Assembly: GCA_025055575.1 (NCBI GenBank)
Contig: JANWWP010000004.1
Location: forward strand, 1 to 51,531
DNA length: 51,531 nucleotides
Direction of reading: 5' to 3'
Origin: Flavobacteriales bacterium
GTDB taxonomy: Bacteria; Bacteroidota; Bacteroidia; CAIKAF01
In this document: positions 27,053 to 28,789 of the stretch, one piece after another
How the letters are laid out: the number at the start of each line of letters is the position of its first letter
Position numbering within the stretch: the stretch's first letter is position 1
The notes under the pieces: generated by a model
Database searches by the model: none
What the model was told of the DNA's origin: nothing
Seen by the model: the letters and a program-made list of their open reading frames with translations, nothing else
Made by a program: the position numbers and the translations under genes

Positions 27053-27475
27053 AAGAACTTAAAGAAATCCTCGTAGGCAAAGCCAAAACAAAGAGTCCAT
27101 TTTTTTTCACACCGCTAAAGAATCTACTTTTCTCATTAAATATTAATTATTGACTAACAACATTTTATTAAATCTGGATAAATACATTTTTTTAAGATAC
27201 ATTGTTTCCGCGCCGAAATCAAGATCCCTTTTGGGCCAGAGGGAAGCTCCTGTTTAAAGGGATTAATGATGATTAATTAAATATTTGGTTTAAGAGAAAT
27301 TATTAATTGTTTTGTATTCAAATAATTAAAGATATTTCTCAAAAAGATTTTTTGGAGCTGAAGGCGGCCGCTATGGCCTTCAAAACTTTATAGACCATAG
27401 GACAAATGCCAGAGAAAATGCGTTGGATAGCGTAATTTTGGTTTTTTAGGACGTTACATCCAGGTTTTCCCCGAA
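27053..27475. other. AT-rich intergenic region upstream of the EVE gene
   Basis: About 420 bp without a convincing gene, much more AT-rich than the flanking cargo gene. It contains a possible 6-bp-stem hairpin (GAAGGC 27360-27365 with GCCTTC 27376-27381) and a -7-like TAATTTTG at 27433-27440, 35 bases before the EVE gene ATG. No TTG lies at the right distance. The sequence may mark the edge of an acquired segment. Confidence 0.45.
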
Positions 27476-28594
27476 ATGGCTTATTACGTTAATATCTTTT
27501 CCCCGGCTACCTATCAAATATTCACCCATTCCGACAGAACCTTATCGGGCTTCAGGGAAAGACATAAAGGGGTGGCCTCCACAATCCAACCGGGAGATAA
27601 ATTTATATGTTATGTCACAAAGCTATCCCGATGGGTGGGGGTTTTGGAAGTGAAAAGTTCTTGCTTTGTGGATCCTGCTCCCCTATTCTCTGAAATTCAG
27701 GATCCTTTCGTCATACGATTTCGTGTGCAGCCTTCGGTGTGGCTTCCACTGGAAAAGGCCATTCCCATGGAGGCGGATCTCCTATGGAACAACCTTTCAT
27801 TCACCCAACATTTGCCCAAAAAAAGCGCCGGTTGGACCATCATGGTTCGGAGCAGCCTGAAAAGGCTCGCCGACAACGACGGTGCATATTTGGAGAAAAT
27901 TTTACTGGATCAACTGAACAATCCTATCATTTTTAACCTAGATGAAACAGATCACAAGAAATTAAAAACCACCATCGTAAAAACGCAGGATTATAGGCAG
28001 GTGCCCGTTGCCATTCCGGAAAATGAAAATTTTGTCCCGGAGGCGCAAGGTGCGCAGCCCACCGCCCCACGGGATTCCATCCTCATCCAGGCGCTTTTAG
28101 CAGAGGTGGGAGAGCGCATGAATCTAAAGATTTGGCTGCCCCGAAGCGACAGGCAGAAAGTGTTGGAAATTTGGAAACCTAAAACCCACTGCTTACTGCA
28201 ACAACTCCCGCTGAATTATGATGATGCCACTTTAAAAACTATCGAAAATATTGATGTCCTCTGGATCCGGGGCCGTTCCATCGTGCGGGCTTTCGAGGTG
28301 GAGCACACCACTTCGGTGTACTCCGGTATTTTAAGAATGGCCGATTTAATGGCCTTGCAACCCAATCTGAACATTCAGGCCCACATCGTGGCGCCCTTGG
28401 AACGAAGGGATAAAGTATTGAAAGAAATATCCCGGCCGGTTTTTGCTTTTTTAGAGAAAGGCCCCTTATCGGAATCCTGCTCTTTTATCTCTTACGAATC
28501 CGTGCAAGAGCTTTCTAAGGAAAAGAGACTTGAATACATGTCGGATGCGGTTTTGGATGCGTATGCAGAATATGCTGAAGAAGCGGATATTTAA
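27476..28594 (+). CDS. EVE-domain protein with C-terminal PD-(D/E)xK-like nuclease domain
   Basis: 372 residues. Residues ~1-150 form an EVE (PUA-like) domain: YYVNIFSPATYQIF at the start, then IQPGDKFICYVTKLSRWVGV, the usual gating strand pair. EVE domains bind modified bases such as 5-methylcytosine derivatives. A linker (~175-198) leads to a domain (~199-372) containing NIDVLWIRGRSIVRAFEVEH with D260, E274 and E276, followed by TTSVYSGILRMADLM. That D...ExE(H) arrangement resembles a PD-(D/E)xK nuclease core, but this is inference. The pairing suggests modification-dependent restriction or defence. It stands alone, flanked by AT-rich non-coding DNA. Confidence 0.75.
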   Translation: MAYYVNIFSPATYQIFTHSDRTLSGFRERHKGVASTIQPGDKFICYVTKLSRWVGVLEVKSSCFVDPAPLFSEIQDPFVIRFRVQPSVWLPLEKAIPMEADLLWNNLSFTQHLPKKSAGWTIMVRSSLKRLADNDGAYLEKILLDQLNNPIIFNLDETDHKKLKTTIVKTQDYRQVPVAIPENENFVPEAQGAQPTAPRDSILIQALLAEVGERMNLKIWLPRSDRQKVLEIWKPKTHCLLQQLPLNYDDATLKTIENIDVLWIRGRSIVRAFEVEHTTSVYSGILRMADLMALQPNLNIQAHIVAPLERRDKVLKEISRPVFAFLEKGPLSESCSFISYESVQELSKEKRLEYMSDAVLDAYAEYAEEADI

Positions 28595-28789
28595 ATCAAA
28601 ACATTTTTTTAAAATCTTTACTAATCAATTTCATTAAACTGATTGGCAATCATGTGGCGTTCGCCGAATATTAAAATATGATTATTATTATTTTTTATAA
28701 ATAATTATTGTATGCCATTTGGTTGAAAAGCCAAACCTGTAGTTTGCCCATGTTTTTTAGACATTATTCAATAATCTAAAGGTTAATCT
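28595..28789. other. AT-rich non-coding region between convergent genes
   Basis: 195 bp with long A/T runs and TTATTATTATTTTTTATAAATAATTA-like sequence near 28680-28708. It separates the 3' ends of the EVE gene and the PKD cargo gene. No gene or strong GC hairpin was seen. Confidence 0.45.

Follow-up and report, generated by a model that had tools for sequence, protein, structure and literature searches.

The gene at 27476..28594 (+ strand) of the window, by which we mean the whole 51,531-nucleotide stretch analyzed here from a Flavobacteriales bacterium, encodes a 372 aa fusion of an EVE domain and a predicted PD-(D/E)XE nuclease domain. We argue that this protein is likely to be a complete restriction system for modified DNA that has no partner methyltransferase. 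Judged by its domains, it probably defends against phages with chemically modified DNA. The N-terminal EVE domain would bind a modified base, probably flipped into a pocket by analogy with VcaM4I. The nuclease domain, tethered on a flexible linker, would then cut the DNA close to the mark, and host DNA without the modification would escape. Since unmodified host DNA would be spared, a partner methyltransferase would be unnecessary and the gene could spread alone. Base reading, DNA cleavage and phage restriction are what we infer for the window protein.

A preliminary description, made from the DNA letters, had placed an ORF with an EVE half and a nuclease-like half here. That ORF is confirmed. 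Its MAYY start is kept in the alignment of relatives, and so is the order of the two domains. A protein scan of public genomes gave 36 related loci, and 18 two-domain relatives at 39-69% identity were aligned. The relatives come from the Bacteroidota, Bacillota, Chloroflexota and Planctomycetota plus one gammaproteobacterium. The same layout is conserved over five phyla, which rules out a chance ORF. The gene was also said to sit alone in AT-rich non-coding DNA between two surface-protein genes, and this agrees with what we find. By GC count the upstream spacer (27053..27475, 423 bp) is 32.6% GC and the downstream spacer (28595..28789, 195 bp) is 25.1% GC. The gene itself is 46.6% GC versus 54.2 +/- 2.5% in 16 other long ORFs nearby. 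The flanking genes encode proteins of 623 aa and 607 aa, the latter with PKD-like repeats, and both look like surface proteins when judged by eye. Reading the neighbors by eye revealed no recognizable adjoining defence gene, and no methyltransferase was found at the locus by motif and by reading the neighbors. The locus matches no RNA family.

Residues 1-147 (27476..27916, + strand, boundary approximate) are an EVE/PUA-like domain of the UPF0310/PH1033 type. Pfam EVE scores the window protein alone at E=0.042, which is under the cut-off, and NCBIfam PRK00809 matches it at 6.5e-7. Across the family PRK00809 matches 20 of 20 N-termini (best 1.1e-13) and Pfam EVE matches 19 of 20 (best 5.3e-7). 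The family profile finds PH1033 (1.5e-8) and MJECL36 (1.2e-7) in the PDB. A fold search with the AF2 model, whose pLDDT is mostly >85 in this domain, ranks PH1033 first (2.4e-8), followed by MJECL36, YTH domains and VcaM4I. Profile and fold thus both uphold the EVE domain that had been recognized at the N-terminus. It must be noted that YTH domains outrank VcaM4I, so the ligand may be something other than a modified cytosine. The modeled fold would fit modified cytosine and m6A alike. A linker follows at residues 148-197 (27917..28066, + strand); it is variable in the alignment and has pLDDT <50 at 165-197.

Residues 198-372 (28067..28591, + strand) are predicted from sequence and model to be a PD-(D/E)XK-type nuclease domain. 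This assignment is well supported because the same domain is the restriction subunit beside C5-methyltransferases and is also fused to methyltransferases. The PADLOC model REase_II (PDLC03534) matches residues 202-328 at 8.3e-14. The window protein covers only positions 179-312 of the 351 in this model, while the homologue L007 covers 4-348. Across the 40 aligned homologues D260, E276, W263, T279 and G212 never change and E274 is almost invariant, which puts the three acids where the preliminary description had them. D260 (codon 28253..28255, + strand) is the predicted metal ligand, and E274-V275-E276 (28295..28303, + strand) is the predicted E-x-E motif. The spacing is D260-x13-E274-x-E276, with a glutamate in the lysine position. 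The BamHI active site is also E-x-E, with a glutamate in place of the lysine.

Structure prediction and a fold search had been proposed for the C-terminal half, and their outcome is mixed. The AF2 model of the isolated domain is confident (pLDDT 91.1, pTM 0.88), and its order of helix, core strands, helix and further strand is that of PD-(D/E)XK enzymes. Type II enzymes lead the fold search, with 7 of the first 9 matches being chains of BsaWI, EcoT38I, BamHI and EcoO109I. However, these matches are weak, as none falls below E=0.001 (BamHI is at E=0.09). The PADLOC match, the motif and the ties to R-M operons sustain the nuclease reading. An HNH enzyme can be rejected, since the window protein has no HNH match in Pfam, NCBIfam or PADLOC and its catalytic domain is of another type.

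The catalytic domain is found in several other kinds of protein. Enzymes of 359-367 aa are the full-length form of PDLC03534, and their gene overlaps a probable C5-methyltransferase gene (L077, L078, L079). A Vsr-like gene adjoins one of these operons. A PF00145 search confirms the operon methyltransferase in two genomes (G065 and G118). Three sister proteins (L007, L012, L023) share the D-E-x-E signature with the window protein and have a C5-methyltransferase adjacent. In L025, L029 and L030 the domain is fused to the C-terminus of DNA methyltransferases. It follows a winged-helix-like N-terminus in L022 (weak HARE-HTH match) and other N-termini in L003-L006 and Pontibacter, and it is carried by solitary proteins of 414-420 aa as well. 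Together these settings tie the domain to restriction, and the variety of sequences in front of it shows that the N-terminus is exchangeable.

Some of these forms have settings of their own. The 414-420 aa proteins (L083, L093-L100, and on plasmids L074, L075, L076, L101-L104) are annotated as 'type II restriction endonuclease' or hypothetical. They lie in copper/heavy-metal resistance loci in 9 of 12 Bacteroidota loci (by motif) and in 7 of 8 annotated plasmid loci. The genes around them encode P-type ATPases, HMA-like and CPMH-type proteins, CopC/CopD and CueR, without a methyltransferase. The Pontibacter form (L054-L065) joins the catalytic domain to an unrelated-looking N-terminus, which hhalign compares with EVE at a probability of 7%. 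It keeps a conserved nuo-type neighborhood across ~11 species, and apparently it was inherited vertically, in contrast to the EVE form. Two methyltransferase-nuclease fusions (L084:3833-6668 and L088:5921-8784) each follow a 95 aa RadC/HhH-like ORF. The EVE half alone weakly matches 578-871 aa frames in seven genomes (G003, G008, G050, G058, G096, G155, G179), which are possibly EVE-McrB type proteins.

The company this domain keeps suggests another scenario, in which the window protein is a type II endonuclease for an unmodified sequence. The EVE domain would then be an extra DNA-binding module, and the methyltransferase would be encoded elsewhere in the genome. We consider this improbable. 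It is true that sister proteins either have a C5-methyltransferase as partner or form one polypeptide with a methyltransferase, that PADLOC names the domain REase_II, and that one relative adjoins a C5-methyltransferase. At that locus (L031:4301-9119) a C5-methyltransferase, a gene of unknown role, an MTaX1 gene and the intact EVE-nuclease gene all point in the same direction. However, in no other relative does a C5-methyltransferase operon lie directly upstream, and a methyltransferase partner does not recur beside the EVE form. In fact no neighbor family recurs beside it across the relatives (the Pontibacter form is a separate variant). Profile searches of the host genome find neither PF00145 nor PF01555 enzymes; there is a single partial HsdM-type match, on another contig. 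The predicted modified-base reader also takes the place of the N-terminus of the type II form. A type II R-M pair at the window locus itself is rejected, since no methyltransferase is adjacent or fused. The earlier claim of a single gene without a methyltransferase is upheld.

It is less probable still that the protein reads a modified RNA base, or is a toxin or abortive-infection nuclease, and does not restrict DNA at all. EVE relatives occur in toxin-antitoxin systems according to PMC7641849, and after the UPF0310 proteins the nearest structures are RNA-binding YTH domains. However, the catalytic domain has its kin among DNA restriction enzymes and in operons with a methyltransferase, and an antitoxin-like partner does not recur. 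The least probable scenario is an inactive nuclease domain in a protein that merely binds DNA: the canonical lysine is missing (E-x-E) and E274 is substituted in two relatives, but D260 and E276 are invariant across 40 homologues that include R-M enzymes, E-x-E is the arrangement of BamHI, BamHI is among the top fold matches, and all three acidic residues are intact in the window protein.

If an EVE-nuclease enzyme of the kind we favor targeted 5mC, its carriers should have few C5-methyltransferases. This depletion is not seen. PF00145 enzymes are present in 9 of 22 carrier genomes (41%) and in 65 of 148 genomes of the phylum (44%), p=0.82. Since they are equally frequent in carriers, and the intact L031 copy sits beside one, it is unlikely that the target is 5mC DNA in every context. 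The preliminary description had proposed a reader of modified bases joined to a cutter. Both domains and the conserved active site argue for it, but the methyltransferase comparison disfavors a domain that reads 5mC whatever its surroundings. The possible targets are 5hmC, cytosines that are glucosylated or otherwise hypermodified, m6A, and 5mC if it is read only within a narrow sequence context.

R-M genes lie near five relatives, a number weighed against an assumed background of 2-10% and not a matched control. Besides L031, one copy is directly after a type IIG enzyme (L032), one has a type III methyltransferase and an AbiU-like gene nearby (L036), and two are directly before type I genes (L040 and L051). 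Some copies are changed: L035 has E274K, L049 has E274G, L048 and L051 have frameshifts, and L053 has a transposase-like insertion. Disrupted copies are common among restriction genes. A PF00145 match is present in the genomes of 4 of 5 disabled-looking relatives versus 5 of 17 others (p=0.12), with the match in the L035 genome being weak and partial, so we draw no link from these counts. One tentative idea, which we hold to be unlikely, is that phages evade R-M by means of a non-5mC mark, either a hypermodified cytosine or m6A, and that the EVE domain reads this mark, making the enzyme a second-strike partner of R-M. Reading such a mark would explain why intact copies and C5-methyltransferases occur together and why R-M systems of various types adjoin some copies. 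If this were true, type II immunity, which is self-marking, and type IV immunity, which is mark-dependent, would have shared one cutting module through a swap of its N-terminal reader.

The gene was probably acquired horizontally, based on its patchy distribution, its low GC and the context of its relatives. Full-length copies are present in only 2 of 395 genomes of the phylum, including the host's own. All 15 further genomes of the host family that were compared lack the gene, among them one from the same genus. Among the relatives, L072 is on a viral contig near phage tail-type genes and L071 is behind a resolvase. The Bacteroidota copies cluster in the tree (95/96), so any transfer would be mainly inside the phylum. 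These points favor the mobile defence gene that had been proposed, but the window locus shows neither an integrase nor an att site, and a clean empty site is not seen. In the same-genus genome the orthologues of the two flanking genes are on separate contigs with different neighbors, which implies that the region has been rearranged. The only repeats of the kind that bound inserted elements are imperfect and AT-rich. A search of phage records gave no match, and plasmid matches stop short of the EVE domain.

Bell, Wolf and Koonin (2020, PMC7641849) described a class of EVE-PD(D/E)XK fusions and predicted them to be type IV restriction enzymes. The window protein adds a convincing member to that predicted class, and the class itself is not new. 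It has the EVE domain, a nuclease domain in the same polypeptide and no cognate methyltransferase. As far as that paper outlines the class, the architecture, predicted role and solitary gene are all alike. The window subfamily combines a UPF0310-type EVE domain with the PDLC03534 catalytic domain. Among the open-licence papers searched, none reports experiments on an EVE-PD(D/E)XK enzyme. A similar system is VcaM4I, an EVE-HNH enzyme in which 5mC or 5hmC is flipped into a pocket of the EVE domain (PMC7897488). Both proteins have an N-terminal EVE domain, a linker, a C-terminal nuclease and no methyltransferase, and their EVE folds match. VcaM4I differs in having an HNH nuclease, and similarity between the two EVE domains is not detectable in their sequences. 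Compact (~370 aa) EVE-nuclease fusions across phyla would widen the modification-dependent enzymes past EVE-HNH, and they could yield reagents for detecting modified DNA.

On the nuclease side, the PDLC03534 R enzymes (L007, L012, L023) share the catalytic domain and its D-E-x-E signature, but they have another N-terminus and an adjacent C5-methyltransferase. BamHI shares the E-x-E variant and a weak fold match, but it is a sequence-specific type II enzyme with no reader domain. That one catalytic domain serves in R-M operons of type II, in fusions to methyltransferases and in fusions to EVE domains is a concrete case of modules exchanged between type II and type IV systems. Single-gene fusions of a sensor and a nuclease that act on modified DNA are known from the GIY-YIG type IV enzyme CMoRE (PMC12923530) and from the winged-helix fusion endonucleases (PMC11037411). 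These likewise put sensor and nuclease in a single gene, but the folds of both parts differ from those of the window protein.
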